A stretch of 19,422 nt of DNA from Anaerolineae bacterium (GTDB taxonomy: Bacteria; Chloroflexota; Anaerolineae; B4-G1; SLSP01). Made by a program: the position numbers and the translations under genes. Positions 1,813-19,326 of this stretch are shown here, piece by piece. Location: positions 1-19,422 of the forward strand of contig JAFGSL010000174.1 of NCBI GenBank assembly GCA_016934645.1, given 5' to 3'. The stretch's first letter is position 1. Each line of letters begins with the position of its first letter. The notes under the pieces are model-generated. The model was not told where the DNA came from. It searched no databases and was given only the letters and a program-made list of their open reading frames with translations.

Positions 1813-2355
1813 GTGAAAACCGCTGACGTTTTGTTGCAACGGGCGCGACACTGGGACGAGACGGCTTTAGCGCAGATTTACGATACCTACGCGCCAGCCA
1901 TCTATCGCTACGTTTACCGGCGCATGGGACATGCTGACACGGCGGAAGAGATCACGGCGGAAACGTTCCACCGTTTCCTGGTTGCTTTGAAGCAGGGCGG
2001 CGGCCCAACAGAGTATCTCTCAGCCTGGCTCTACCGCGTCGCGCACAATCTGATCGTCGATTTCTATCGCCGCCAGCCGGTACAAGAACCAACAACGTTA
2101 GAGGATGTTGTTCTGGCCGATGGTGATCAAGGTGTAGAGCATCTGGAACGCCAAACACGGGTGGAACAGGCTCGTGCCGCACTACGGCAGTTGACGCCAT
2201 TGCAACAACAGATCATTACCTTGCGGTTTCTAGAAGAGATGAGCAATGAGGAGGTGGCACGCGTGGTTGAGCGCACCGAGGGTGCGGTGAAAGCACTACA
2301 GCACCGTGCGCTCAACAGCCTGCGTCGCCTATTGGAGGGAGAAGATGAAGTTTAA
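1813..2355 (+). CDS. ECF-type RNA polymerase sigma factor
   Basis: The 180-residue protein has the two-domain layout of group 4 sigma factors. Region 2 spans about residues 20-88, with AEEITAETFHRFL and the AWLYRVAHNLIVDFYRR core used for -10 recognition. Region 4 spans about residues 124-174, with LTPLQQQIITLRFLEEMSNEEVA followed by a helix-turn-helix ending ALQHRALNSLRRL. The start is GTG at 1813, with AGGAAA just upstream. The last 11 nt overlap the start of the next gene, so translation is probably coupled and the next protein is its likely anti-sigma partner. Target promoters and the inducing signal cannot be read from this window. The DUF4405 operon immediately upstream is a possible target. 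Confidence 0.93.
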   Translation: MKTADVLLQRARHWDETALAQIYDTYAPAIYRYVYRRMGHADTAEEITAETFHRFLVALKQGGGPTEYLSAWLYRVAHNLIVDFYRRQPVQEPTTLEDVVLADGDQGVEHLERQTRVEQARAALRQLTPLQQQIITLRFLEEMSNEEVARVVERTEGAVKALQHRALNSLRRLLEGEDEV

Positions 2356-3571
2356 ACGTACAGCACCACAAGAAACGCTGTCACCATCGGTGGCCTCTGC
2401 TATGGATGCTTTGCGTCCAGTGCCTGCGCCAGACGCTGAGGCATGGGATGCGCGTCGCCAAGCGTTTTTGGCCGAAGCACTCGAATATGCACCCCAGGCC
2501 GTAACCCTAGTACCGATTTTGCGTCGTAAATCATGGAAGAACCTATTCTCAGTTAAGCTTAAGGAGGCTCCCATGATGGCATTTGTGAAAGTTTTAGTTG
2601 CACTAGCTCTTATCTTCGGCGCGACGGCCGGCACGGTCAGCGCCTCACAGGAGAGCTTGCCGGGATCAGTGCTTTATCCGGTGAAGGTGGGGTACGAAGA
2701 TGTACGTTTGTCGGTGACACAAGATCCCGAAGCAAAAGCTCTGTTGGCGATGGAGTTTGCTGAAGAGCGCGTCGACGAGGCTGTGCAATTGGTCGAAGAT
2801 GGTGGCGAAGTCCCCGAACCCCTCGCGGCGCGGTATCAGCTCCAGGTGGGGCTGGCTATGCAGACGATGGAAGGGCTTGGAGAAGCGCAACAGCTTCAGC
2901 TTCGCGCACATTTCTCAGGCACACTGCAAAATCAAGTACGTGTGATGGAGCAGACTATGGCACGCCTGCATCAGGGCGAGAACCCGGAACATCCTGAACC
3001 CACCCAAGCCATGATTCAGACGATGCAACAGACAATGCTACAAGCGCAGCAGCAGATGCAACAGGAGTTCGGTGGCTTTGGTCCTCAGGCAGGCGGTAAT
3101 GACGAAGCCCCTGGTAATGATGAGGCCCCTGGCGGCAATGACGGAACTCCTGGCAATGATGAGGCCCCCGGCGGCAATGACGGAGCCCCCGGCAATGACG
3201 AAGCTCCCGGGCCGAACCCCAACGATAATGGCAACGATGGTCACTACGGCGAAAGTCAGGACCACGATAAGCATCACAAGAACGGCGGGGACAAGGGCGG
3301 CGGCGCAGACGACAAAGGCCAAAACAATGGCGAAAAGGGTGGCAACATCGACACCGGTAACACTGGTGATAACGGCGGGAATGGCGGCAGTGATAACGGT
3401 GGTTCCGACAACGACGGTAATAACGGCGGTTCTGACAATGGTAATGGTGGAAACGACGGTTCTGACAATGGTGGAAGCGGCGGTTCTGACAATGGCGGAA
3501 ACGGCGGCGGAACTGGTAATGGCGGCAGTGGTGGCAATGGCGGTGGTAATGGCGGCGGAGGTGGCAACTAG
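2345..3571 (+). CDS. DUF5667-type membrane anti-sigma-like protein with Gly/Asn/Asp-rich tail
   Basis: ATG at 2345 is chosen over an earlier in-frame start at 2306 because GGAGGGA at 2335-2341 precedes it; the start overlaps the sigma factor's end. The 408-residue protein has a cytoplasmic part (1-75), one transmembrane helix (about 78-99) and an extracytoplasmic helical region at about 102-240 starting SQESLPGSVLYPVKVGYE, typical of DUF5667. The tail (248-408) is almost entirely Gly, Asn, Asp and Ser. In Actinobacteria and Chloroflexota such proteins often follow an ECF sigma gene, and the N-terminal part could hold the sigma factor at the membrane. I see no zinc-binding HxxxCxxC motif, so it is not a classical ZAS anti-sigma factor. 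The tail may reach into or stick to the cell envelope. The anti-sigma role is inferred from linkage. Confidence 0.75.
   Translation: MKFKRTAPQETLSPSVASAMDALRPVPAPDAEAWDARRQAFLAEALEYAPQAVTLVPILRRKSWKNLFSVKLKEAPMMAFVKVLVALALIFGATAGTVSASQESLPGSVLYPVKVGYEDVRLSVTQDPEAKALLAMEFAEERVDEAVQLVEDGGEVPEPLAARYQLQVGLAMQTMEGLGEAQQLQLRAHFSGTLQNQVRVMEQTMARLHQGENPEHPEPTQAMIQTMQQTMLQAQQQMQQEFGGFGPQAGGNDEAPGNDEAPGGNDGTPGNDEAPGGNDGAPGNDEAPGPNPNDNGNDGHYGESQDHDKHHKNGGDKGGGADDKGQNNGEKGGNIDTGNTGDNGGNGGSDNGGSDNDGNNGGSDNGNGGNDGSDNGGSGGSDNGGNGGGTGNGGSGGNGGGNGGGGGN
3088..3568 (+). repeat. In-frame low-complexity repeats coding the Gly/Asn/Asp tail
   Basis: This DNA is built from degenerate short units. The first part has alternating units coding GGNDEAPG, GNDEAPG and GGNDGTPG (about 3091-3213). 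The second part has units coding GGSDN, GGNDG and GGNGG (about 3360-3568). Because the units are multiples of three bases, long open frames exist in other frames and on the other strand, but these are by-products of composition. Copy number probably varies between strains through slippage. Confidence 0.85.
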
Positions 3572-6610: not shown

Positions 6611-7843
6611 TCAGGCCACAACGGCACCCACTTCCCCGGAACGGCAACTCGCATCCGTATCATCTGGCTGGGAAAGCAATCTGCGTCGTGTAAAGGATAC
6701 AGTCCAGGCCATAATCAACGCACCGAGTACGCCGACAGACCACGTCCCTGCGTTTTCTAGCAGCAATCCTCCCAGGCCTGGCGATACAATTTGCGCGAGC
6801 GTTTGCAGCGACGACGAGAGTCCAAGCGTCCCGCCGGTCTCTTCCCGGCGCACAACCTTCGTCAGCTGACTGGTTAGCACAGTGTTCAGGACACCGGCTG
6901 CCAGCGCAGTCGGCGCCAGCACGACCAGCAACAGCCAGACGTTGGGCGCAAACGCCCATCCAAGAAGCGCAAGCGCCAGAATGACCGTCCCGGCAAAAAT
7001 CAATTGCCGTTCGCGGAAACGCGCAGTCAGCTTGCCAATGGCGAAGCCCTGGACCAGGACGGATAAAATTCCCACGTAAGTCAATACCAAACTGGTAGCC
7101 TGAACATCCAATGCCAGACGGGTTTTGGCATAAAGCGCGAAATTTGCCTGGAACAAGGTGAATGCCAGGCTGTAGAGTAAGTTGATATGCAGCAACGGTC
7201 CTATGCACGGGCGTTTCAACGCTTCAGCGAGAAGACGGAATGAGAAGCGTGTGCGGGGACTGACGCGCATTTCGGCGCGTCGCTCTTGGGAAAGGGATTC
7301 TGGCAACCAGAGCACAACCGCGATCAGATTGAGCAGCGAGAGGCCTGCTGCAACCAGCGCCGGAACGTTATAGCCGAACTGGCTCAAGACTCCACCCATC
7401 GCTGGGCCGACGATGAACCCCAATCCAAAGGCTGCGCCGATGATGCCCAGACCACGCGCGCGGTTCTTTTCGTCGGTGACGTCGGTAATGTAGGCGCGCG
7501 CTAACGCGATATTGCCGCCGAGTAGGCCATCCAAAATGCGGCTGAGAAAGATGACCGTCAATGAGCGCGCTGTCCCCAACAACAGGAAACTCACCACCGT
7601 CCCCACGATGCTGACGATGAGCAGCGGACGTCGTCCATAGCGGTCGGAAAGTCGCCCGATGGTCGGTGCCGCGATCAACTGACCGAGCGCGTTTACCGTT
7701 CCCAAAAGCCCGACCAGGGTCAACGTCGCGCCGAATGTTTCCGCGTAGTAAGGGAGCAAGGGTAAGATCAAGCTGTACCCGAGCAAATCGATCAGGACAA
7801 AACCAAAGATCAATCCCAAACGTCGTTTGATATCTTTATCCAT
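6611..7843 (-). CDS. MFS transporter, TetA-like drug/metabolite efflux type
   Basis: The 410-residue protein has about 12 transmembrane segments. Loop 2-3 carries the MFS signature GRLSDRYGRRP near residues 63-73. The central region has the GFIVGPAMGGVLSQFG pattern of motif C, which is typical of drug:H+ antiporters. It is therefore most likely a proton-driven exporter, with unknown substrate. AGGAG at 7853-7857, inside the last codons of the photolyase gene, lies 9 nt before the ATG. The start is only 15 nt from the photolyase stop, so the two are co-transcribed. This context suggests a role in the photo-oxidative stress operon rather than housekeeping, but that is inference. Confidence 0.9.
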   Translation of the reverse strand: MDKDIKRRLGLIFGFVLIDLLGYSLILPLLPYYAETFGATLTLVGLLGTVNALGQLIAAPTIGRLSDRYGRRPLLIVSIVGTVVSFLLLGTARSLTVIFLSRILDGLLGGNIALARAYITDVTDEKNRARGLGIIGAAFGLGFIVGPAMGGVLSQFGYNVPALVAAGLSLLNLIAVVLWLPESLSQERRAEMRVSPRTRFSFRLLAEALKRPCIGPLLHINLLYSLAFTLFQANFALYAKTRLALDVQATSLVLTYVGILSVLVQGFAIGKLTARFRERQLIFAGTVILALALLGWAFAPNVWLLLVVLAPTALAAGVLNTVLTSQLTKVVRREETGGTLGLSSSLQTLAQIVSPGLGGLLLENAGTWSVGVLGALIMAWTVSFTRRRLLSQPDDTDASCRSGEVGAVVA

Positions 7844-7858
7844 CGTTGGTATCTCCTA

Positions 7859-9262
7859 CTATATGATTTCACCCTCACGTGCCATTTTGTAAGCCGATAG
7901 CGCCCGCTTGCGCGCCCCGGTATGCTCAACGATGGGCTCGGGGTAATCCTTACCGATAACGCAGCCAGCTTCACGCTGCACGCTATCAGGCATCGTCCAT
8001 GGATGGTGTAGATAGACGAGAGGCACGTGTCCCAATTCCGGGATCCATTGGCGCACGTAGTCGCCATTGGAATCGTACTTTTCGCCCTGCAATAGCGGGT
8101 TAAAAATGCGAAAATAAGGCGCAGCATCCGTGCCGGTTCCCGCACTCCACTGCCAGCCACCGTTGTTCGCTGCCGGATCGCCATCGATGAGGTGCTGCAT
8201 AAAGTGTCGCTCGCCCCAGCGCCAATCGACGAGCAAGTCCTTGGTGAGGAATGATGCGACGATCATCCGCGCGCGGTTGTGCATCCAGCCAGTCGCCAGG
8301 AGTTGGCGCATCCCTGCATCGACGACGGGATAGCCGGTGCGGCCTTCCTGCCAGGCACGGAAGGCGTCTGTATCATTATCCCATTGGATATTCCGTAGAT
8401 TCTCGCGGAAGCTCTCGCGGCGGACATGGGGGAAGTGATAGAGCACGCTCATATAGAATTCGCGCCAGATCAACTCGCCGAGCCAGACGTCCACCCCTGA
8501 TTGTGCGCTGTCACGTGCTTTCAACGCTGCGACGACAGCTTGCCGCGCCGAAAGCATCCCAAAACGCAGATACGGCGAGAGCTCTGATGTCCCTGTCTGC
8601 GCCATCAAATCGCGCCCCGTAGCGTAACCAGCGATCCTCTCTGCGACAAAGTCCTGCAACCGGCGCCGTGCCTCGGCTTCTCCGGGCAGAAATGGGACGC
8701 TCTCCAGCAACCTTGGTGCGTCGGGCAAGGCAGCGCTGCGGATATCCGGCGGAATGGGAATGATCTCCGGCGCAGGAAGCAATTCCCGTGCATCCGGCAG
8801 GGGCAAAGCGCGCCACGCCCGGCTGTAGGGCGTATACACAGCGTAGACGCCGCCATCGCGTTTGCATACGGCCTCCGGTGGGTGGACGGTCAATCCGCCG
8901 ACGAGGTGTAGTGGTACTTTCGCCGCAACCCGCGAGTCGCGGTGACGGGCATACGGGGAGACATCCGCTTCCGCAAAAACGGTCTCGGCCCCGGTTTCCT
9001 GGCGCAGGCGCGCCAATTCTTCATCCGGGCGACCGTGACGTACGATCAGGTAACTGCCTCGCGCGCGTAGATCAGCATCCAGGGTTTGCAGTCCGCTGAG
9101 TAAGAACGCACGCCGTTTGTCGCCGGCATAGTCGGAATTCCACAACGCTGGATCGAGCACAAACACGGGAAGCACATAGTGGCTGTGAGCCAGAGCAGCG
9201 TGCAGGGCCTGGTTATCGCTCAGTCGCAGGTCGCGCCGTATCCACCAAATCGTTGTGTTCAT
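7859..9262 (-). CDS. phr: Deoxyribodipyrimidine photolyase (class I CPD type)
   Basis: With ATG at 9262 the protein has 467 residues, typical of class I photolyases; an in-frame ATG at 9268 and a TTG at 9286 are alternatives. MNTTIWWIRRDLRLSDN starts the N-terminal antenna domain (about 1-165). The FAD domain contains GRDLMAQTGTSELSPYLRFGML, LIWREFY, TGYPVVDAGMRQL and NNGGWQWSAGTGTDAAPYFRIFNP, which hold FAD contacts and the terminal electron-transfer tryptophan. The enzyme uses blue light to split cyclobutane pyrimidine dimers. The antenna chromophore (folate or deazaflavin) cannot be decided here. No clear Shine-Dalgarno sequence precedes any start. A palindromic repeat lies just upstream, and the gene sits in the operon facing a B12 photoreceptor-type regulator. 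Confidence 0.95.
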   Translation of the reverse strand: MNTTIWWIRRDLRLSDNQALHAALAHSHYVLPVFVLDPALWNSDYAGDKRRAFLLSGLQTLDADLRARGSYLIVRHGRPDEELARLRQETGAETVFAEADVSPYARHRDSRVAAKVPLHLVGGLTVHPPEAVCKRDGGVYAVYTPYSRAWRALPLPDARELLPAPEIIPIPPDIRSAALPDAPRLLESVPFLPGEAEARRRLQDFVAERIAGYATGRDLMAQTGTSELSPYLRFGMLSARQAVVAALKARDSAQSGVDVWLGELIWREFYMSVLYHFPHVRRESFRENLRNIQWDNDTDAFRAWQEGRTGYPVVDAGMRQLLATGWMHNRARMIVASFLTKDLLVDWRWGERHFMQHLIDGDPAANNGGWQWSAGTGTDAAPYFRIFNPLLQGEKYDSNGDYVRQWIPELGHVPLVYLHHPWTMPDSVQREAGCVIGKDYPEPIVEHTGARKRALSAYKMAREGEII

Positions 9263-9276
9263 AGGCATACAAATGT

Positions 9277-9330
9277 GTAGTGGCAACTTTAGTCGCTTCC
9301 GCGCGAGAAAACGACTGAAGTCGCCACTAC
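9277..9330. repeat. REP-like palindromic repeat, copy 1 (between AKR and photolyase)
   Basis: GTAGTGGCAACTTTAGTCG at 9277-9295 pairs with CGACTGAAGTCGCCACTAC at 9312-9330 over all 19 positions except two, which can pair as G-T/G-U. The loop has 16 nt. The right end overlaps the stop codon of the aldo/keto reductase gene by 4 bases. It resembles copy 2 at 19359-19412 in its GTAGT...ACTTTAGT core. It may stabilise or attenuate the operon mRNA ahead of the photolyase gene. Confidence 0.8.
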
Positions 9331-10277
9331 GCTTTGACTGCCAGACTTAATTCGTCCAGCGCGGCAACTTCGTCATCCGTAAGCCGCCAGCCGAGAGCGC
9401 CTGCATTTGAGAGTACTTGGCGAGTGTTCTTTGCACCGGGGATCGGGACTGCCCCCTTACAGATCGTCCAGTTAAGAGCGACCTGAGCGGGGCTTTTGCC
9501 ACCGTGAGCCTCGCCAAAGTCGCGCAGCATCTCAATCAGCGGCTGCACTTTTTGGAGATACTCGCGGTTGTATGTGTTTCTGCGCGGGCCGGGTGGCGGA
9601 TTGTCGGGCGTATATTTGCCGGTGAGGATACCCTTCTGCAACGGACTGTAGGCAATCAACGTCACATTGAGATCCTTGCAGAGTTGCGCCACACCATTGA
9701 ACTCTGGATCGCGGCGGAGCAGGCTGTAGAAGACCTGGTTGGAGGCCAGGGGAATACCACGTTTGGCGAGTGCGGTATGCGCGCGGCCCATCTGCTTCAT
9801 ATCGTAGTTGGAGACGCCGACGGCGCGTATCAGCTCCGCTTCTACAGCGTCGGCCATCGCGTCCATCCACGTCTCGATCGGCACGGGCGGAAGAGGAAAA
9901 TGCATCTGGTAAAGGTCCACGCGTGCCATCCCCAGACGCTTGAGGCTGTTGCGCAGTTCCCGGCGAAGAGCGTTTTTCGTCAGCCAAAAGGGAAACGGCA
10001 TAAACTTGGTCGCTACCACGACGGGTTGTTCGGTTTCGCGGATAAACCCACCGAGTAACCGCTCCGAACGTCCCAGTCCGTAGACCTCCGCCGTGTCGAA
10101 GAAATTGATCCCGGCTGCTACCGTCGCATCGAAGGCAGCTTGAATGTCGGCATCGTTGTAACTTTTGCCGTATCCCCACATCACCGAATCGCCCCAGGCC
10201 CACGTACCGATGCCCATCGGGGATATGTCGATGTCGGTATTGCCCAGTTTCACCCGCTCTACTGTTTGTTGTGTCAT
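9327..10277 (-). CDS. Aldo/keto reductase
   Basis: The 316-residue protein is a (beta/alpha)8 NADPH-dependent oxidoreductase. The catalytic tetrad is complete: D61 and Y66 in FFDTAEVYGLGRSE, K91 in VVATKFM, and H126 in LYQMHFP. The C-terminal cofactor site is seen in AVPIPGAKNTRQV. It looks closest to the plant-type chloroplast/bacterial AKRs, whose substrates are usually reactive aldehydes or quinones; the true substrate is unknown. GGAGG at 10282-10286 lies 4 nt before the ATG. It follows the Rieske gene after 63 nt, which hold a 12-bp tandem duplication. In a photolyase operon it may clear aldehydes made by lipid oxidation, which is inference. Confidence 0.93.
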   Translation of the reverse strand: MTQQTVERVKLGNTDIDISPMGIGTWAWGDSVMWGYGKSYNDADIQAAFDATVAAGINFFDTAEVYGLGRSERLLGGFIRETEQPVVVATKFMPFPFWLTKNALRRELRNSLKRLGMARVDLYQMHFPLPPVPIETWMDAMADAVEAELIRAVGVSNYDMKQMGRAHTALAKRGIPLASNQVFYSLLRRDPEFNGVAQLCKDLNVTLIAYSPLQKGILTGKYTPDNPPPGPRRNTYNREYLQKVQPLIEMLRDFGEAHGGKSPAQVALNWTICKGAVPIPGAKNTRQVLSNAGALGWRLTDDEVAALDELSLAVKA

Positions 10278-10299
10278 TTGTCCTCCGGGAATAGTCTTA

Positions 10300-10323
10300 T
10301 CGTCGTTAGTCTCGTCGTTAGTC
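10300..10323. repeat. 12-bp tandem duplication
   Basis: TCGTCGTTAGTC occurs twice in direct succession at 10300-10311 and 10312-10323, between the aldo/keto reductase and Rieske genes. It is short and probably a slippage product. Confidence 0.7.
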
Positions 10324-10340
10324 AGATTGTCGAGTAGTCA

Positions 10341-10709
10341 TCAGTCTAGGTCGATCCAGATGCTGCCTTCGGCGATGCGGGCTGGGAAAACACGCAAGGC
10401 CTTTTCACGGGAAACCGCCCCCAACATTTTTCCGACGACGGGAGGCCAGGGTGACCAGGCCTTCACATCGCCGGTGTGGAGGTCGAAGGCGCTGTGATGG
10501 AAGGGACAGACGATGGCTAAACTGGTTCCAGTTTCGTCTTCGGTGACTGTACCGCCTTTGAGAGGTAATCGCATATGCGGGCATGCGCTGAGCATCGCGT
10601 AGACTTTACCATTTTCGTGAATGAGCAGGATGGAATGATCCTGCACTTTAACCACCTGGCGTGTTCCTTCAGGCAGTTCTGTTTCGGGCAAAACTTTGAT
10701 CCAGTTCAT
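10341..10709 (-). CDS. Rieske [2Fe-2S] ferredoxin-like protein
   Basis: ATG at 10709 is chosen because GGAGG at 10715-10719 precedes it; the open frame extends to 11015 but that part overlaps the epimerase gene. The product has 122 residues. The cluster ligands are C43 and H45 (CPHMRL) and C68 and H71 (CPFHHSAF), so the CxH...CxxH pattern is complete. There is no signal peptide or membrane segment, so this is a soluble cytoplasmic Rieske ferredoxin of the NirD/BphA3 type. Its job is probably to pass single electrons to a partner enzyme. No oxygenase alpha subunit is nearby. The neighbours are an epimerase, an SDR, an AKR and a His-rich membrane protein, any of which could be a partner. Confidence 0.93.
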   Translation of the reverse strand: MNWIKVLPETELPEGTRQVVKVQDHSILLIHENGKVYAMLSACPHMRLPLKGGTVTEDETGTSLAIVCPFHHSAFDLHTGDVKAWSPWPPVVGKMLGAVSREKALRVFPARIAEGSIWIDLD

Positions 10710-10743
10710 AAGCACCTCCGGTTGGGAAAAATCCTTGGAAAGT

Positions 10744-11673
10744 TTACTCGTTAAAACGTTTGTTACTTCTGAAAATATCGGATAGGGCAGCATCGAGCGT
10801 AGGAAAGTGGAACGCAAATCCCATCTGCTGCAATTTGATCGGGAGAGCGTGTTGTCCACTGAGGAGTATAGTCGCCATCTCTCCGAAAAGCAACCGCAGC
10901 GCAAATCCCGGCACCGGTAGCCACGCAGGACGATGCATAGCGCGCCCCAGCGCGCGGCTGAATTCGGCGTTGGTCTGCATTTGCGGCGCGGTGAGGTTGA
11001 ACGGACCGTGCGCATCTTCGCGGTCGATCAGAAAGCGAATTGCCGCCACCTCATCAACCAGGTGAATCCACGGGAAAGCTTGTTGTCCGTTACCTACCGG
11101 CCCGCCACCAAAAAAACGAAACGGCAAGGCCATTTTGGGCAATGCGCCGCCTTCCCGTGTCAATACGATGCCGGTGCGAAGGAGAACGTGTCGCACACCA
11201 GCTTTTTCGACTGGACGTGTGGTGGCTTCCCAATCAACGGCAACCCGTGAGAACCAATCCGTTCCAGGCAGAGATGCCTCGCCGAGTGCCTCTTCACCGC
11301 GCGGTCCATAATATCCTACCGCCGAAGCCTGGAGAAATGCGCGTGGCTTATGTTTCGCAGCGTTGACCGCATCCACGAGGGCCTGCCCGGCCTTGATCCG
11401 GCTTTGCCTGATGCGCATCTTGCGTTCTGCCGTCCATCGCCCGGCAGAGATATTCTCCCCTGCCAGGTTGACGATCACATCAATGGCGTTGATCAGGGGC
11501 CCCCATCCGGCGACACTACGTGTGTCCCACGGTCGTACTTCAACGCCGGACGGCAGTACGGGGGCGCGCGCCGGGTTTCGACTAAGCACGATTACCTCAT
11601 GGCCATCACGGGCTAAATCGGCTACCAGCGCCCGGCCAATCAATCCGGTTCCTCCAACTACAAGCACACGCAT
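10744..11673 (-). CDS. TIGR01777 family NAD-dependent epimerase (YfcH/SDR39U1-like)
   Basis: The 309-residue protein starts with the Rossmann motif GGTGLIG at residues 7-13. It has the family elements LAGENISAGRW, ASAVGYYGPRGEE and GPFNLTAPQ. It ends in a DUF1731-like C-terminal part (VPGFALRLLFGEMATILLSGQ). These are atypical extended SDR proteins of unknown substrate, conserved from bacteria to animals. AGAGGA about 6 nt before the ATG serves as binding site. It follows the SDR gene after 22 nt. I recall TIGR01777 proteins in light- or singlet-oxygen-regulated clusters with photolyase in other bacteria, which fits this operon. Confidence 0.93.
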   Translation of the reverse strand: MRVLVVGGTGLIGRALVADLARDGHEVIVLSRNPARAPVLPSGVEVRPWDTRSVAGWGPLINAIDVIVNLAGENISAGRWTAERKMRIRQSRIKAGQALVDAVNAAKHKPRAFLQASAVGYYGPRGEEALGEASLPGTDWFSRVAVDWEATTRPVEKAGVRHVLLRTGIVLTREGGALPKMALPFRFFGGGPVGNGQQAFPWIHLVDEVAAIRFLIDREDAHGPFNLTAPQMQTNAEFSRALGRAMHRPAWLPVPGFALRLLFGEMATILLSGQHALPIKLQQMGFAFHFPTLDAALSDIFRSNKRFNE

Positions 11674-11695
11674 TGTGATTGTCCTCTCGGTGTTT

Positions 11696-12556
11696 TCACT
11701 CTTGCGAGAGTGAAGCCGGGATTGTGCGAATGTTCAGGTCGAGGGGCGGGGCGGGACGTCCCAACAGGCGCCGCACCATTTCTTTCAGCGCCCCACCAAG
11801 CATGGAGAATATGGTCGATTGCTCGACGACCAGGCCGGTTTTCCTGTCTGTCGCGTGACTGCCGAGCCACACGACTTTCTCGGCAGGAACTTCAGGCGGC
11901 TTGCCGAACATCCGAATGACGGTATCAAATGACGCCAACCGTCCCTCGTAGCCTTCGACAGCATCAACCTGGGTGAGCAACTCGGTGACCATCATCCCGG
12001 GATTGAAGGCGTAGACACCTACACCGCTCTCTTTGTATTCCTGCGCCAGAATGGAGGTGAAGTTCTTCATCCACCCTTTGCTGGACGTGTAGGCGTTCTG
12101 CATTGGCATCGGGCGGCGCGATCCTGCGCCGAGAATGTTGATGAGTTTTCCCGCGTGACGCGGCAGGAAGTGCTGCATGGCAACCCAGGAGCCGTGATAC
12201 GTGCCCCTGATGTTGGTCTGCAGCACGGTGGTGAACATCTGCGGGGCAATATGCGCCGTAGCGCCGTAAGGCCCGGCGATGCCGGCGTTGTTGATCCAGA
12301 TGTCGAGCTGGCCAAAGGTGTCCAGCGCGTGCTTCTTGAGGGCCTGGACTTGGGCGAGATCTCCGACATCACATGGAATGCCAGCAACACGCCCATCGTT
12401 CGACTGCAGTTGCGTGACCGCTTGCGTGACCGCATCGGCCGATCGCGAGGCCACAACGATGGCTGCCCCCTCGCGGATGTAGGCCCGTGCAATCGCCAAA
12501 CCCAGACCACGCGTTCCCCCGGTAATGACAGCAACTTTTCCATCCAATGTGCCCAT
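11696..12556 (-). CDS. Short-chain dehydrogenase/reductase with altered active site
   Basis: The 286-residue protein has a classical SDR fold. TGGTRGLG at 12-19 binds NAD(P), NNAG is at 89-92, and Y156-x-x-x-K160 is in NAYTSSK. The catalytic serine normally 13 residues before the Tyr is glycine here (G143, in INILGAGSRR). S146 is nearby and could substitute. I recall a subfamily with similar NILG/NLLG sequences, so this may be a family trait rather than a defect. The C-terminus (about 240-286) extends beyond a typical SDR and is proline-rich. Its ATG overlaps the stop codon of the upstream membrane-protein gene as TAATG, so translation is coupled. The substrate is unknown. Confidence 0.9.
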   Translation of the reverse strand: MGTLDGKVAVITGGTRGLGLAIARAYIREGAAIVVASRSADAVTQAVTQLQSNDGRVAGIPCDVGDLAQVQALKKHALDTFGQLDIWINNAGIAGPYGATAHIAPQMFTTVLQTNIRGTYHGSWVAMQHFLPRHAGKLINILGAGSRRPMPMQNAYTSSKGWMKNFTSILAQEYKESGVGVYAFNPGMMVTELLTQVDAVEGYEGRLASFDTVIRMFGKPPEVPAEKVVWLGSHATDRKTGLVVEQSTIFSMLGGALKEMVRRLLGRPAPPLDLNIRTIPASLSQE

Positions 12557-13587
12557 TACGCTGTTGCTCCTTCTGCTTCCTGAACAATCGGTTTCCGTTT
12601 GAAGATACGGAGGACGAGGGTGATTAATCCCGCTAAGAGCAAAGCTGCGAGGTATTCGATAATCGGGATGCGCACAATTTCATTGATGCGTACCCACCCC
12701 AGTCCGCTATAGGTGAGGATGACGCCACCCACATAAGCGGCCAAAATCACCCACTTCGACCAGTTTGGTAAACGCAGCCCGTGCATCTGCGTGATGACGA
12801 ACATCCCGCCGAAGCCGAAGAAGAACATTGGCCAGAGGCCATTGCCCTGCATCACCGCGACCAATGTGCCGTGGAAGAGCACCATCACTTCCTGTACCAT
12901 CATCCACCAGCGATTGATGTGTAGCCGGGTGTAGAACAGGCTCCCCTGTAACAACAATAGGAACATGTAGAAAAAACCTACCAGGTGCCCAAGCGTTGAT
13001 TCGGCCGGGTGGTACCAGAACGTATACACTGTCGCCCAGGCGAAGACGTAGCCGTGGTATTTTCGCACAAAGCTGGTCGCGTCTTTGGAGATGGGACCGC
13101 GCTTTCCCCAGAACAACCCACGACGCCGGTTCTCCATAATTAAAATCATCACCAGCATCAAGATGACGGATCCTTGAGAACTCCAAATGGAAACGTCTTG
13201 CGCGAGGCCATCGTACCAGATATGAGTTTGGATAAAGTGCAGGACGATGAAGAATGCGTTGACCCCCAGAGCGATCCAGTTTACCTTGTGCAAACCACCC
13301 GTGTACCGTTTCACGCGCGTCTGAGCATAGTAGATCAGTCCCCACATCGCCAGTTGATGGGCGACGTAAAAGCCCCAGGCCGTCAGGCGCGTCCACAGAG
13401 TCGGATTCGGCAGCTTCCAGTAGTACCATGACGCTCCTTGATCAGGCAAGAATCCACTTCGATCGAGCCACTGTCCGGCCCACCAGATCAGTGCAGTAAA
13501 AGCTAGACTGAAAAGAATGCCGCTCCACAATACCCGTTTTGCCGCTGAGGTTATTCCTGAAGTTGTATGCTGTCTTTGTATCTCCAT
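12556..13587 (-). CDS. Unidentified His/Trp-rich multi-pass membrane protein, first gene of operon
   Basis: ATG at 13587 is preferred over upstream in-frame starts because GAGG at 13597-13600 lies 9 nt before it, giving 343 residues. I do not recognise the family. Nine or ten hydrophobic segments can be drawn, roughly at 18-37, 70-88, 104-121, 136-151, 179-192, 201-220, 230-247, 250-267, 277-294 and 310-328. Many histidines lie in or next to membrane segments: H77, H117, H122, H178, H193, H201, H223, H239 and H269. Tryptophan is unusually frequent. This could allow heme, metal or carotenoid/quinone binding, but no standard motif proves it. It is the promoter-proximal gene facing the B12-type regulator, and its stop overlaps the SDR start, so it is probably the key target of that regulator. 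Confidence 0.8.
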   Translation of the reverse strand: MEIQRQHTTSGITSAAKRVLWSGILFSLAFTALIWWAGQWLDRSGFLPDQGASWYYWKLPNPTLWTRLTAWGFYVAHQLAMWGLIYYAQTRVKRYTGGLHKVNWIALGVNAFFIVLHFIQTHIWYDGLAQDVSIWSSQGSVILMLVMILIMENRRRGLFWGKRGPISKDATSFVRKYHGYVFAWATVYTFWYHPAESTLGHLVGFFYMFLLLLQGSLFYTRLHINRWWMMVQEVMVLFHGTLVAVMQGNGLWPMFFFGFGGMFVITQMHGLRLPNWSKWVILAAYVGGVILTYSGLGWVRINEIVRIPIIEYLAALLLAGLITLVLRIFKRKPIVQEAEGATA

Positions 13588-13623
13588 AGTTATCATCCTC
13601 GTTTTATCTTTATTTTCTAAAAA

Positions 13624-13651
13624 ATCATAGCACAAAAGACAATTTTGTCAA
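13624..13651 (-). promoter_or_regulatory. Promoter of the membrane protein-SDR-epimerase-Rieske-AKR-phr operon
   Basis: On the minus strand TTGACA (13651-13646) and TATGAT (13629-13624) are separated by 16 bp, a near-perfect housekeeping promoter. The expected start of transcription is near 13617, leaving a leader of about 30 nt. The -35 box forms one half of the palindrome at 13646-13661, so a repressor bound there would block RNA polymerase. Confidence 0.7.
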
Positions 13652-13661
13652 TATATTGACA
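13646..13661. promoter_or_regulatory. Perfect 16-bp palindrome, candidate operator
   Basis: TGTCAATATATTGACA is its own reverse complement. It covers the -35 box of the minus-strand operon promoter and contains a second TTGACA in the plus direction. Position and symmetry fit an operator for the adjacent MerR/B12 regulator. A TGTACA at 13671-13676 lies 10 bp further on and may be an additional half-site. Binding is inferred, not shown. Confidence 0.55.
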
Positions 13662-13681
13662 TTGATTTTCTGTACACATAT

Positions 13682-13709
13682 TTGACAAAACGGCGTTTTG
13701 TGATAGGAT
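13682..13709 (+). promoter_or_regulatory. Candidate promoter of the MerR/B12 regulator with overlapping inverted repeat
   Basis: TTGACA at 13682-13687 and TAGGAT at 13704-13709 are 16 bp apart, and TG at 13701-13702 gives an extended -10. An inverted repeat, ACAAAAC at 13685-13691 with GTTTTGT at 13695-13701, fills the spacer, as expected for an autoregulatory site. The remaining leader to the start codon (about 230 nt) holds no gene, only the G-run and hairpins described separately. Confidence 0.45.
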
Positions 13710-13737
13710 ATACTTATTCCTGCTGGCTCAAGAATTT

Positions 13738-13834
13738 CGACCTAAAGGTCGGGGGGGGGGAGATATAAGGGGGATTTTTGTGCGGGACTTTGTCCCGCAC
13801 AAAAATCCCCCTTAAAAAAGCTGCTTTAGCGGCA
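13738..13834. repeat. Cluster of hairpins and G10 run in the regulator's leader, with perfect 23-bp inverted repeat
   Basis: CGACC-TAAA-GGTCG at 13738-13751 is followed by ten consecutive G at 13751-13760. A perfect 23-bp inverted repeat has arms 13766-13788 and 13792-13814 around a TTT loop, with GTGCGGGAC-TTT-GTCCCGCAC at its centre. A further small hairpin GCTGC-TTTA-GCGGC lies at 13820-13833. No T-run follows the long stem on the plus strand, where AAAAAA follows, or on the minus strand, so it is not an intrinsic terminator. It lies between the regulator's promoter and its start codon and would form in the leader RNA. Confidence 0.85.
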
Positions 13835-13948
13835 GAATTACACGCAAATGCCCCTTGGTTCTCCATAATGAGAAGATCCTGTAATCAGATTATAGCAGGA
13901 AGCGCAATCGTACTATCTATGAAGTCAGTTGGGGTACAAGGAGTAACG

Positions 13949-14926
13949 ATGAACGACGAGGAACAGATTTATACCATTGGGGTTGTCGAACGTATGACCG
14001 ACATTCCAGCGGCGACGTTGCGCATCTGGGAACGTCGCTATGATTTCCCGGATTCTGATCGCACTGAAGGAGGGCATCGTCTCTATTCGGAAAAAGAAGT
14101 CCAACGTTTGCGCTGGGTGAAGGCACAAATTGATGCAGGGATGCATACCCGGCAGGCGGTCAAAGCATTGCGGCTGATGGAAGCGGAGGGCGGCGCACAG
14201 GCCGAAATGCGGTTGCCGGGTATGGTGACGTTGGCGGCTCCAAGCGCAGAATCTGACAACGCAGGCAATGTTCATATCAGTGCATTGCGGACGAAGCTTT
14301 TCTCTGCCCTGCTTGCCCACGACACCGGGCAAGCGGATCAGGTTTTCAACGACGCATTTGCCCTTTACACGCCAGAAAATCTGATTGTGGATTTGATCGC
14401 TCCAACGCTGCGCGACATTGGAACGGGGTGGGAGCAAGGCGAGATCGATGTTGCAACGGAGCACCTAGCGACCAACCACCTGCGCCAGCACCTGCTGGCG
14501 TGGATGCGCACCGGACCACCCCCCTACACTGCATCACCCGTCGTGTTGGCTTGTGCTCCAGGCGAATGGCATGAGGGGGGCTTGCTTATGTTTGGCGCGT
14601 TGTTGCGTCGTCGCCGTTGGCCTATTGCCTATCTCGGCCAATCTATCCCTTTGCCGGAGGTAGCCAAGTTCGTCCAGAAGATAAAGCCCCCAGCCGTGGT
14701 GCTGACCGCGACGACAGAAGAACCGGCTCTGGCGCTGGCGGAATGGCCTACTTGGCTGCCTGAAGCTGCCAAAACGGGCAATCCGGTCGTTAGCTATGGC
14801 GGATTAGTGTTCAACCAACAGCCTGAGATACGGACCAAAGTCCAGGGGCTCTTTTTAGGGACGACGCTTCAGGAGGGTGTGGAAACGCTGGAACGTCTGC
14901 TACGGCAAAAAGGTCTACATCTATAG
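13949..14926 (+). CDS. MerR-family regulator with cobalamin-binding domain (CarH/LitR-type photoreceptor)
   Basis: ATG at 13949 is chosen because AAGGAG at 13938-13943 precedes it; the open frame starts earlier but runs through a hairpin region. The 325-residue protein has an N-terminal MerR helix-turn-helix (8-58, IYTIGVVERMTDIPAATLRIWERRY), a four-helix cap domain (about 110-188) and a Rossmann-like B12 domain (about 197-320). The cap has W161, then nine residues, then E171-H172, the W-x9-EH signature of CarH-type photoreceptors. The B12 domain has E206-W-H208-E-G-G211, the E-x-H-x-x-G motif with the cobalt-ligand His. Such proteins bind adenosylcobalamin, repress DNA as tetramers in the dark and let go in light. 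The residue after W161 is Glu, where, from memory, Thermus CarH has a His. It faces the photolyase operon divergently. Confidence 0.9.
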   Translation: MNDEEQIYTIGVVERMTDIPAATLRIWERRYDFPDSDRTEGGHRLYSEKEVQRLRWVKAQIDAGMHTRQAVKALRLMEAEGGAQAEMRLPGMVTLAAPSAESDNAGNVHISALRTKLFSALLAHDTGQADQVFNDAFALYTPENLIVDLIAPTLRDIGTGWEQGEIDVATEHLATNHLRQHLLAWMRTGPPPYTASPVVLACAPGEWHEGGLLMFGALLRRRRWPIAYLGQSIPLPEVAKFVQKIKPPAVVLTATTEEPALALAEWPTWLPEAAKTGNPVVSYGGLVFNQQPEIRTKVQGLFLGTTLQEGVETLERLLRQKGLHL

Positions 14927-15415
14927 CAGCGTTTTAGGGTCGGGAAATTGTCCTGGTTGGAGAAGGGGAACAGCTTCGGCATAACCTGGGGCCGCCATCG
15001 CAAAGAAATTCCCGGCCCGTACTCGGGCGATGGCTTCATCAGGCAATATCGAGTGGTAGAGGACAAGATACCCTGCAAGGATCAGTCCGGTGCGGTCGGC
15101 TCCGGCGTGGCAGTGAACCATCACTGGTGTCCCAGCCTCGACCCGCTTGTGGATGAAATCCCACACCGGTAGTGCCTCGTGGATGAATGCCTTGCGCATC
15201 CCCGCCGAATAAAGATACACCGGGGGAAACGCGGCCCGATAGTGCTCCAGGCCATAGTGGCTCAAATCTTCCACCGGCTCTTCCGCCGCAAGGGAAACAA
15301 CCGTGCGAATCCCGCCAGCATAAAGGTCTTGCGGATTCCAAGGCGCTCGAACCGGCCCGGGGCGTCCGCCTAAAACTCTATCGATGATCCAATAGACGTG
15401 TTGCATAGCCCCCAT
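14921..15415 (-). CDS. Dual-specificity/tyrosine-type Cys phosphatase family protein
   Basis: The 164-residue protein contains the P-loop VHCHAGADRTG, with nucleophile C102 and R108 fitting the HCxxGxxR signature. The fold around it (MVHCHAGADRTGLILAGYLVLY, followed by AIARVRAGN) is that of small DSP/PTP-like phosphatases. The aspartate general acid expected roughly 30 residues before the Cys is not seen; the region reads FPPVYLYSAGM. E80 might act instead, or activity may be limited. The substrate could be a phosphoprotein, phosphoinositide or nucleotide. Starts at 15415 and 15406 are both possible, and neither has a clear binding site. Its stop overlaps the stop of the convergent B12 regulator gene by 6 bp (CTATAG holds both). 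Confidence 0.85.
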   Translation of the reverse strand: MGAMQHVYWIIDRVLGGRPGPVRAPWNPQDLYAGGIRTVVSLAAEEPVEDLSHYGLEHYRAAFPPVYLYSAGMRKAFIHEALPVWDFIHKRVEAGTPVMVHCHAGADRTGLILAGYLVLYHSILPDEAIARVRAGNFFAMAAPGYAEAVPLLQPGQFPDPKTLL

Positions 15416-16509: not shown

Positions 16510-19317
16510 TTATGGGTTTAGGGCAATTGGCAAAAGCAAATCTATGTTGCCGTTGACCGCGAGGTAACTCCCGTCTTCCTGGCGATAGAAGCCTATGCGT
16601 AAGCGGTAGTCGCTAGCCGGGAGCTCGCCCGGCAGGGTCAGCGTGTGCCGGTCGACAATGATCTCCCCAGCAATCCACAGGGATGTGGGATAGCTCCCCT
16701 GCTGCGGTCCTTCGTCCACTTGCGTGACGATGGCACCGGTTTCATCCAGCACATGCACGAAGATAAGGTAATCTTCATCTAGCTCAGCCAGCGATTGCCA
16801 GTACAGCGTTGTCTCCAAGGGTTGACCCGCCTGGAGCGTTCCCACATCGTAACCGAGTAAGCGGATGTGTGCGCCGAAGTCTACCTCGAAGGGGTGCCGT
16901 ATCTCTGGCGGCGCAAAGGTGCGCGTCACAGTTTGCACTTCCACGCTCCCCAACGTCGCCACGGGCGTATCCCCTACCGATAACGCCAGTATGTATTGCC
17001 CGGCTACGATCTCCCTCGGCAAGCGTAACGCGTAACGGTCCTCAATGATGTCACCGGGGCGCCATTGCGTGAAGGCATAGCCGCTTGCTGGCGCACCGCT
17101 GTAGAGGCGCGTCACAGGCGCGGGTTGCTCTGAGCCGGTCAGCGTCAGGGTGACGTCACCTTCCGGCAGCGCATCGCCTATCGCTTGCCAGCATAGCCGG
17201 AGAAGCATAGATTCGCCGGGGCGCATGCTCTCGGGCGGGGACGTAATGCCTGTCAGCCGCAGGTCGCCGAGAATGGTATCGGTCACGCGTGGAATGCCGA
17301 AACAGGCGGCCTCGGATTGTTCGGTGTTGGGCGCAGACGGCATCGGCAGCAACGTCCCCGTCAGCGGAAAGCGCGCCTCGAGCCCGGCGAAACGCTCCGC
17401 TTCCAGACGCGGCAGCACCTCACCACTGTCGGGGTTGAAGAAACTCACGCCGATCTCGTAGCCCTCCACGGGCGGGATGCCTACGGGCGGGGTGAGCGTG
17501 TACTGGTCGAGGACGAGATCGCCTATCGTCCACTGCTCCGGTGGATAGTGGAAAGCCGTCACACGTGTCCATTCGCCGGTTTCCGGGTGCAGCAGGCGCA
17601 CTACTGGCTGGAGTGAAGTGTATGGCGCGTTGACCATCCACGTGACGAGGATCGGGCACGGTTCGGCGACGCGACACGCGCCCACCGACTGCGTGTTGTG
17701 TAGAAAGATCACGTGCGCGAAGTCAGCGACGGAATCGGCAGTGGATTCCGGGTCAGACGTTGCTGCGCGCAGTGCGGTGATATCGCTTTCGTCAAGGCGT
17801 TGCACCCACAGAGCCGGTTCGCCGGTGGGGTCGTTGAGAGCGGTGATGCGCCATTTCTCGGTGATCGTCTTGGGCCAGAATGCTGGCAGCGCGATTGAGC
17901 GTGGCCATAGATAGAGGGCATCCCGGGACAGTGGGAGTACAAGCGTTGCTCCGCCAGTGAGCCATTTGGCTTGGAAATACTGTCGTGCCAGGGCCGCCAC
18001 TGTAGGGTGACGGTAATGCTCGCTGGCGATGTAGACCGTGGTCTGCAATAGGTCCGCCGCGTCCAGCGCCTCTGCCGCCAGCACCATCTCGCCATCGGCG
18101 GCGTAGAATAGCTCGCTAGACGAGGCCCATTGGCGATAGGCGTGAGCGGTCGCTAATCCGCCAAGCAGCAAAAGAAGCAGGAGGCAAGAAGCAAGAGACA
18201 GGAGACGCCTTTTGGCTCGCAGATAGCCTGTGAGCATGGTGATGAGCGTAGCAACACCATACGCCGGAAGAATGGCGATGAAAGGGAACAAGCCGATCAG
18301 ACGCAGGTTACTCGGCGTGATCTCGGAGGTCGCCAGCGCGCTGGGGAACAGCATCGTCGCCAGTACCGCGACGATGAAGGTTCGCCCGGCACGGTACAGG
18401 TTGTTGCCTTGCTTGGGGAACAGAAGGCAGGCCAATCCAATCAAGGCCAGGGCCGCCGAGACAATGTCCAGTACCGGTTTACCGGGGACGTTGAAGCGGA
18501 TATAAGGATCGCCGCCACCGGGCCAGGCCAACGCGCGCACGCAGAGCCACAATCCGCGCAGTGCATCGCGCCACGTCGCGGCAGCGACCTGGGTGATGCG
18601 TGTGGTGAAGGCGTCGGGGTTGCGCAGAAAGTACAAGCCCAGCGGGGAAAAGACAACCACAGCAACCAGTAACACCAGTCCCAATTGGCCCACTCGTCTC
18701 AGACGAGTTCCCCGAGGCGTGCGGACGAGCAGCCACCCCAGCGCTAATGCCAGCGGTATCGGGAACAGGCGCGCCGCCAGATAGGTGTATGCGGTAAGGC
18801 CGAGGCACACGCCGCCTGCGACGAGCCAGCGGCGTGTGCCGTTGCGCAGGCCACGCCAGAGCGTGGCAACCGTCAACGCCTGAAGCAGCGGCTGTGAGAT
18901 AGCGCGGAAGCCATAACGGCTCAGGAGCACATGCGGGAAAGCAATAGCAACCCATCCCGCTGTCAGGAGCGCAATCTCCCGCGAGCGTTTTGCGGGACCG
19001 AATAGCGCGTGGGTTGCGGCATAGGTCGCTGCGACGGTGAGGATAGCGAGCATTGCCGCGTTCAGTCGCAAACCCCACAGCGCGCCACCGGTCGCCCACA
19101 CCCAGAACGCGCCGGTATAGAAAAAGAACACTTCCTTGCCGGTATAGGCGCGGATGAACACCGGGCGATAATCACCAGAAGCGATTTGCCGTGTGAGAAT
19201 AACGTTGGCGGCTTCGTCATAGTGTAAACCTACGGGCGTATCAGGCAATGCACCCAGGCGTAGCACTGCCGCAACCAGGAGCACGAGCGTCATACCGAAA
19301 ACATAGAAACGTTTCAT
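16510..19317 (-). CDS. GT39-like membrane glycosyltransferase with large extracytoplasmic C-terminus
   Basis: The protein has about 935 residues from ATG at 19317; a TTG at 19320 is in frame. The first 400 residues hold ten or more transmembrane helices. The first external loop carries GLHYDEAANV with D34-E35, the acidic pair expected in GT-C enzymes such as PMT/ArnT. These use polyprenyl-phosphate sugars outside the membrane to modify proteins or lipids. Residues about 400-935 are mostly soluble. From about 530 they look like repeated beta-sandwich modules, with two similar stretches ending in DRYALRLPREIVAGQY and DRHTLTLPGELPASDY. Such long C-terminal parts are common in Chloroflexota homologues. 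No Shine-Dalgarno is seen, and a -10 box lies only 10 nt upstream, so the mRNA may be leaderless. No terminator separates it from the convergent RicT gene. Confidence 0.87.
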   Translation of the reverse strand: MKRFYVFGMTLVLLVAAVLRLGALPDTPVGLHYDEAANVILTRQIASGDYRPVFIRAYTGKEVFFFYTGAFWVWATGGALWGLRLNAAMLAILTVAATYAATHALFGPAKRSREIALLTAGWVAIAFPHVLLSRYGFRAISQPLLQALTVATLWRGLRNGTRRWLVAGGVCLGLTAYTYLAARLFPIPLALALGWLLVRTPRGTRLRRVGQLGLVLLVAVVVFSPLGLYFLRNPDAFTTRITQVAAATWRDALRGLWLCVRALAWPGGGDPYIRFNVPGKPVLDIVSAALALIGLACLLFPKQGNNLYRAGRTFIVAVLATMLFPSALATSEITPSNLRLIGLFPFIAILPAYGVATLITMLTGYLRAKRRLLSLASCLLLLLLLGGLATAHAYRQWASSSELFYAADGEMVLAAEALDAADLLQTTVYIASEHYRHPTVAALARQYFQAKWLTGGATLVLPLSRDALYLWPRSIALPAFWPKTITEKWRITALNDPTGEPALWVQRLDESDITALRAATSDPESTADSVADFAHVIFLHNTQSVGACRVAEPCPILVTWMVNAPYTSLQPVVRLLHPETGEWTRVTAFHYPPEQWTIGDLVLDQYTLTPPVGIPPVEGYEIGVSFFNPDSGEVLPRLEAERFAGLEARFPLTGTLLPMPSAPNTEQSEAACFGIPRVTDTILGDLRLTGITSPPESMRPGESMLLRLCWQAIGDALPEGDVTLTLTGSEQPAPVTRLYSGAPASGYAFTQWRPGDIIEDRYALRLPREIVAGQYILALSVGDTPVATLGSVEVQTVTRTFAPPEIRHPFEVDFGAHIRLLGYDVGTLQAGQPLETTLYWQSLAELDEDYLIFVHVLDETGAIVTQVDEGPQQGSYPTSLWIAGEIIVDRHTLTLPGELPASDYRLRIGFYRQEDGSYLAVNGNIDLLLPIALNP

Positions 19318-19326
19318 CAAAGGCTG

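Follow-up and report, generated by a model that had tools for sequence, protein, structure and literature searches.

What does a CarH/LitR-type regulator control when no carotenoid genes lie beside it? The question is raised by a stretch of 19,422 nucleotides from an Anaerolineae bacterium of the Chloroflexota (GenBank assembly GCA_016934645.1, contig JAFGSL010000174.1; the whole stretch is called the window here), in which a regulator gene on the plus strand (REG, 13949-14926) and a close-set series of seven genes on the minus strand (13587-6611) point away from each other. The seven encode, in order, an integral membrane protein (MEM), an SDR oxidoreductase, a TIGR01777 epimerase, a Rieske ferredoxin, an aldo/keto reductase (AKR), a photolyase and an MFS exporter. 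The original prediction, made from the sequence, was a B12-photoreceptor-controlled operon that joins the photolyase to a new set of redox proteins. We consider it probable that REG is a class-I CarH/LitR photoreceptor-repressor acting at a shared operator, with the seven genes as an accessory arm of its regulon. CarH/LitR regulons are a kind of system that is already known; the undescribed MEM family, the operators in front of MEM and a CarH subclade with Glu in place of the ligand-switch His132 are new. The features concerned are these:

13949..14926, plus strand: REG, CarH/LitR class-I-like regulator of 325 amino acids, with a MerR helix-turn-helix and two B12-binding domains (PF13411, PF02607, PF02310)
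13624..13709, both strands: shared divergent promoter/operator, with predicted sigma70-like promoters facing apart and 16-nt spacers
13651-13646 (TTGACA) and 13629-13624 (TATGAT), minus strand: predicted MEM promoter, 11/12
13682-13687 (TTGACA) and 13704-13709 (TAGGAT), plus strand: predicted REG promoter, 10/12
13667..13688, plus strand: two tandem 11-bp CarH-type direct repeats, TTTCTGTACAC/ATATTTGACAA, 8/8 to nnnnTnnACAn; the second contains the REG -35 box
13646..13661, no strand: TGTCAATATATTGACA, a perfect palindrome of 16 bp that covers the MEM -35 box
13766..13814, no strand: perfect inverted repeat, with arms of 23 bp around a loop of 3 nt, within the predicted leader of REG
12556..13587, minus strand: MEM, 343-amino-acid integral membrane protein of a His-rich family, without a Pfam or NCBIfam family
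11696..12556, minus strand: SDR oxidoreductase, from family scans; its start overlaps the MEM stop
10744..11673, minus strand: TIGR01777 (YfcH/ThyD-like) epimerase with DUF1731, 340 bits against a cut-off of 207
10341..10709, minus strand: Rieske [2Fe-2S] ferredoxin of 122 amino acids, PF00355 at 62.5 against 20.3 bits; CPH...CPFH fits CxH...CxxH
9327..10277, minus strand: AKR, PF00248
7859..9286, minus strand: class-I CPD-type DNA photolyase, PF00875 and PF03441, with class-I relatives
6611..7843, minus strand: MFS exporter (TetA/MdtG-like), from family scans, 15 nt past the photolyase

The case for a CarH-type regulator begins with the protein itself. The closest relatives of REG in the PDB are CarH chains (3whp and 5c8d; E 1.5e-39 and 1.9e-39), and its MerR domain carries LRIWERRY, in agreement with RxWERRY. 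Both motifs on which the original prediction relied are found, W-x9-EH of the four-helix bundle as WEQGEIDVATEH and E-x-H-x-x-G as EWHEGG, and none of the 22 regulators listed lacks the lower-ligand His. By eye, the longer motif E/DxHx2G-x41-SxT/V-x22-27-GG is followed as far as EWHEGG and the x41 spacing, with TAT replacing SxT/V and 28 residues before GG. The REG start was refined to 13949, behind the Shine-Dalgarno sequence GGAG.

The shared promoter region provides the second line of evidence. CarH operators have been reported to consist of tandem 11-bp repeats that cover a -35 or -10 box and follow nAnnTnnACAn or the relaxed form nnnnTnnACAn (PMC8156234, PMC9304148). In the window, the relaxed two-repeat score was reached in 5/300 mononucleotide shuffles (3/300 for the promoter core). 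Both promoters lie inside a 28-nt inverted repeat (79%), and the back-to-back TGTCAA...TTGACA pair of -35 boxes arose in only 3/2000 dinucleotide shuffles of the intergenic region. Between 6400 and 15600 the number of promoter-like sites is ordinary (7 against 4.7, standard deviation 2.7, in shuffles); the MEM promoter is the top site, and the score of the REG promoter is equalled by one other site.

The same divergent arrangement of REG and MEM occurs in three relatives (L005, L029 and L031), all of which retain both -35 boxes and have, by eye, TTGACA-N17-TATAAT ahead of MEM. Their strict three-repeat scores are stronger than that of the window (14/15, 13/15 and 12/15, reached in 0, 2 and 4 of 500 dinucleotide shuffles), with the MEM -35 box inside the middle repeat (L005, L029) or the last (L031). 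Together with the CarH motifs and repeats in the window, this upholds, at the level of sequence, the predicted B12-photoreceptor type of control. The 16-bp palindrome over the MEM -35 box is absent from the intergenic regions of these three relatives. As for the 13766..13814 repeat, an Rfam scan of the window gave no match at the gathering score, and the 20-nt core of the repeat has no exact match in 136 loci. The MEM leader of L031 contains, by eye, a different palindromic insert (2625-2816), and small palindromic elements may be landing in REG/MEM leaders.

How far does this operator extend beyond the window? We collected 80 MEM loci (labels L0xx), many of which end at contig borders, so that neighbour counts are lower bounds. 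With a strict operator hit set by us at >=13/15 (mononucleotide shuffles), hits fell in 7/54 gaps upstream of MEM and in 4/353 other gaps (Fisher p 1e-4; 11/407 in total), and the gap upstream of MEM in L002 scores 15/15. The four hits elsewhere lie at REG (L007, L030), between crtB- and crtI-like genes (L017) and between two genes without an assigned identity (L020). As a REG relative is absent from the locus as sampled in five of the seven loci with a strict hit upstream of MEM, these repeats suggest control in trans. In 13 further intergenic regions linked to REG or crt genes, 8 reach their strict score in <=5/300 mononucleotide shuffles.

Gene content around REG relatives bears on the missing carotenoid genes. 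In the regulator tree (duplicates removed: L005 is represented by L081, and L085 and L090 were dropped), the window regulator branches together with L137 and the regulators of L005, L029 and L031 (support 0.60), within a wider clade of 11 that adds L138-L143 (support 0.996). L137-L143 are the seven best REG matches in an unbiased sample of 301 Chloroflexota genomes, and all seven lie beside crtI/crtB-like genes. A PF18916-type gene is present in six of them as well, and L137 carries an MFS gene and a distant Rieske gene. Across 17 REG regions (none for L144; those other than L137-L143 were selected because they matched photolyase, MEM or REG), crtI- or crtB-like genes are present in 15, the exceptions being L145 and L151. 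In the window itself, scanning of 20 open reading frames (ORFs) against Pfam and NCBIfam (the rhomboid ORF against NCBIfam only) gave no carotenoid and no LOV/PAS family, as the prediction had stated for carotenoid genes. Because of the operator repeats and these seven nearest REG relatives, the window system looks like a carotenoid-gene-less version of a Chloroflexota CarH regulon, and the best explanation is that the carotenoid arm of the photoprotection regulon is located elsewhere or was lost.

The MEM loci point the same way. Their gene maps were built from greedily picked ORFs of at least 90 amino acids named through BLAST against the window proteins or a few neighbours; ten neighbour genes were checked against Pfam, and so was one TetR. 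Within ~6 kb of MEM, relatives of TIGR01777 occur in 22 of the 80 loci, crtI-like genes in 20, SDR in 17, REG in 13, MFS in 11 (50-67% identical), photolyase in 7 and crtB-like genes in 7. The immediate neighbours include TIGR01777 (18), SDR (15) and REG (9), and an SDR or TIGR01777 relative directly adjoins MEM in 33/80. Pfam confirmed phytoene synthase and a crtI-type amino-oxidase in L074, lycopene cyclase in L004, UbiA in L032 and a DICT-cyclase protein in L015. AKR relatives stand near MEM in L025 and L026 (67% and 63%), and the only Rieske relative in the 80 loci is a weak one (27%, L047); more distant ones (29-35%) occur in the CarH/crt clusters L137, L153 and L154. Thus the prediction of a stand-alone set apart from carotenoids is not supported in the form given, since MEM, SDR, TIGR01777, AKR, MFS, photolyase and distant Rieske relatives recur with crtI-, crtB- or cyclase-like genes.

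Two other features of these clusters deserve mention. A DICT-sensor/cyclase-like protein recurs in CarH/MEM/crt clusters (L015:14283-15590, L074:12801-14093 and L010:10764-12107; by Pfam in L015 and by resemblance in the others), and is a possible second signalling branch. In Caldilineaceae loci (L032, L037, L049, L051 and others), the gene order G6PD-like, glycogen-phosphorylase-like (these two are by-eye names), TIGR01777, MEM, UbiA-type, crtI-like recurs, which places MEM near genes for NADPH supply and prenyl transfer.

At the level of whole genomes, the 301-genome sample contains 30 with MEM, 107 with CruF, 74 with this type of photolyase (cut-off 1e-40) and 108 with a CarH-like gene (cut-off 1e-20; 23 of these, counted by eye, match over the B12 part only). 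Photolyase is present in 24/30 MEM genomes and 50/271 others, CarH-like genes in 25/30 and 83/271 (20/30 and 65/271 when the B12-part-only matches are removed), and CruF in 24/30 and 83/271. In 13 of the 52 genomes that have both a CarH-like gene and the photolyase, the two are at most 15 kb apart, in line with the statement in the prediction that CarH/LitR proteins control photolyase genes.

The motifs, promoter architecture, repeats and gene associations are features of the sequence, from which we infer adenosylcobalamin (AdoCbl) binding, dark repression, release by light and a single transcript. In the dark, REG with bound AdoCbl would occupy the operator that the two units share, between their -35 boxes, and shut off both its own gene and the operon from MEM to MFS. 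Light would cleave AdoCbl, REG would leave the operator, and both units would be transcribed. The operon would then be the non-carotenoid arm (DNA repair plus membrane and redox functions) of a light regulon that, in other Chloroflexota, would include crtI, crtB and cyclase genes.

Several observations weigh against this reading, and some of them favour a looser arrangement, in which REG controls itself and MEM (perhaps also SDR) while photolyase, AKR and MFS are each transcribed from a promoter of their own. All seven genes in this exact order were found in the window only and in none of the 80 MEM loci, many of them cut by contig ends; in L005, L029 and L031, MEM is followed by just SDR and MFS. 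In the 301-genome sample MEM is, by eye, near a CarH-like gene in 1/30 MEM genomes (G095) and near this photolyase in 0/30, and the co-occurrence statistics disregard the shared ancestry of genomes. In L069, L073, L076 and L077 (the last by Pfam), a TetR-type gene instead of CarH precedes the MEM-SDR pair, which can therefore be under other control. The strict three-repeat score of the window, 11/15, is not significant (63/500 shuffles), and five of the 13 further intergenic regions do not stand out (L138, L140, L142, L146 and L153), L146 being a REG/MEM pair. Against the NCBIfam CarH equivalog NF052513, REG scores 176.7 bits, under the cut-off of 400, and is for that reason filed as class-I-like. 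Few Rieske or AKR relatives occur near MEM, and a 9/12 promoter-like site lies at 7885, ahead of MFS. However, the SDR start and the MEM stop share 1 nt and the remaining gaps in the operon are 15 to ~64 nt, terminator-like sites are at chance level (11 against 9.7 in shuffles), and TIGR01777, SDR, MFS, photolyase and AKR relatives each recur near MEM; we therefore regard the looser arrangement as unlikely.

A separate doubt concerns the signal. REG could bind AdoCbl and its operator, but repress an oxidative-stress operon in response to the B12 or redox level and not, or not mainly, serve as a light switch. The residue after its Trp is Glu where Thermus CarH has His132, which takes cobalt after photolysis and is reported to be critical for tetramer disassembly; H132A Thermus CarH largely remains tetrameric in light (PMC10442372). 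Among the collected regulators, Glu132 is shared by the window, L005/L081, L029, L031 and L137. In Herpetosiphon, too, a Chloroflexota genome combines MEM with a CarH-type regulator, but there CarH adjoins crtB (phytoene synthase) and not MEM, and in H. llansteffanense (MEM in L041) the pigment is reported as constitutive, with no light induction (PMC6210107); the H. geysericola regulator (L087) has His at 132. Against a non-light role stand the photolyase in the operon and the crt-like genes that adjoin near REG relatives. Position 132 is, moreover, variable among homologues (E, Y, F, H, C, S, R or A; mostly Tyr or Phe in the long class of ~440 amino acids), His is common but not defining in that it occurs in many, not all, myxobacterial CarH homologues (PMC9304148), and an earlier report cited in PMC10442372 found that H132A still disassembles. 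A signal other than light appears to us unlikely, and we continue to prefer REG as a light-released repressor.

What, then, is MEM? In agreement with the prediction, which left it unidentified, MEM fits none of the Pfam and NCBIfam families scanned. It has 3,729 homologues among 7,243 candidates, the best named relatives being from Chloroflexota and the Chloroflexus-type ones 33-42% identical and mostly longer. A Pfam search with 106 members at E 10 gave no consistent family (at most 4 members agree on any), and Brp/Blh (PF15461) is not among the 25 families listed of the 28 matched. CruF (PF04240) and the PF18916 lycopene cyclases, which are also polytopic membrane proteins from the same genomes or clusters, were rejected as relatives by profile-profile comparison with hhalign (probability 1% over 43 columns, and 0.2%). 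The structural model, with ~10 predicted helices, is of high quality (pLDDT 92, pTM 0.89) and has no PDB match at E 0.001. In an alignment that combines 50 of the 71 filtered MEM ORFs (from the 80 loci) with 55 of the 161 homologues listed, His117, 178, 193, 223 and 239, Asp131, Arg155/156 and Glu233 are invariant, and His77 and His201 nearly so; a Trp and a Tyr are invariant too, although identity among the members falls to 33%. As His77, 117, 178 and 239 fall inside predicted helices 2, 3, 5 and 7, they suggest a metal or haem site.

Our guess, which we offer as possible but short of likely, is that MEM is a histidine-metal (or haem) membrane oxidoreductase whose substrate is a carotenoid or lipid and whose redox partners are SDR and perhaps Rieske. 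That MEM is instead a transporter or structural membrane protein seems slightly less probable; the lack of a fold match or known family would allow it, but about seven invariant or nearly invariant His, with the conserved Asp, Glu, Arg, Trp and Tyr, and the SDR or TIGR01777 relatives directly beside MEM argue for an enzyme. A carotenoid substrate is made less attractive by H. aurantiacus, which has MEM (L038) and whose carotenoid steps are assigned to known crt/cru genes with no obvious gap for MEM in that account (PMC3368417). The bolder proposal, of a new-fold family of light-induced His-metal enzymes that modify a photoprotective carotenoid or lipid and are run by a Glu132 CarH subclade without the His132 switch, we consider doubtful. 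For the membrane-repair role that had also been suggested, we found no direct evidence.

Compared with the CarH carotenoid operons of Thermus, Bacillus and Myxococcus, the window shares the MerR and B12 domains, W-x9-EH and the lower-ligand His, and the REG group shares the tandem 11-bp repeats over -35 and the crt genes beside near relatives. Unlike them, the window lacks crt genes, has Glu for the common His after Trp, and has a unit that begins with MEM and includes photolyase, Rieske and AKR. The class II LitR (PplR/PmlR) regulon of Pseudomonas (phrB, SDR, FAD oxidoreductase, ufaM, cryB and folE) is similar in combining photolyase, SDR and unannotated genes, with no crt genes named in the cluster as described (PMC9758184). 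It differs in having no second B12 domain, a LOV partner and TGTACA-N12-TGTACA sites (PMC9758184), whereas both B12 domains are present in REG, and the 20 scanned ORFs include no LOV/PAS gene.

The photolyase start is uncertain (TTG 9286 or ATG ~9268/9262), and the protein scores 423.6 bits against NCBIfam PRK10674, below the cut-off of 506. All genes named in the original prediction are present in the window, although the span given there, 7859-14926, leaves out the MFS gene that it named. From 6544 down, on the same strand, follow a rhomboid-like gene, a YggS-type PF01168 protein and pyrroline-5-carboxylate reductase. A phosphatase-like gene (DSP/PTP domains, 14921-15415) is convergent with REG and overlaps its 3' end by 6 nt, and 1813-3571 encodes a Sigma-70 region 2/4 protein of the size of the extracytoplasmic function (ECF) type, then a DUF5667 protein whose long tail is rich in Asn, Gly and Asp. 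Besides MEM, ORFs 1098-1634 and 16510-19320 had no family match in the window scan.

In summary, this work describes CarH operators and regulon content for Chloroflexota, where CarH beside crtB has already been published for Herpetosiphon (PMC6210107); a full-text search that lacked most subscription journals found no paper on CarH with photolyase, or on CarH or LitR with carotenoid, in Chloroflexi/Chloroflexota. The Glu- and Tyr-132 CarH clades raise the question whether the ligand switch at His132, as in Thermus CarH, is general. Furthermore, an unnamed membrane protein family with thousands of homologues is now tied to predicted B12-type light control, through which its function becomes testable.

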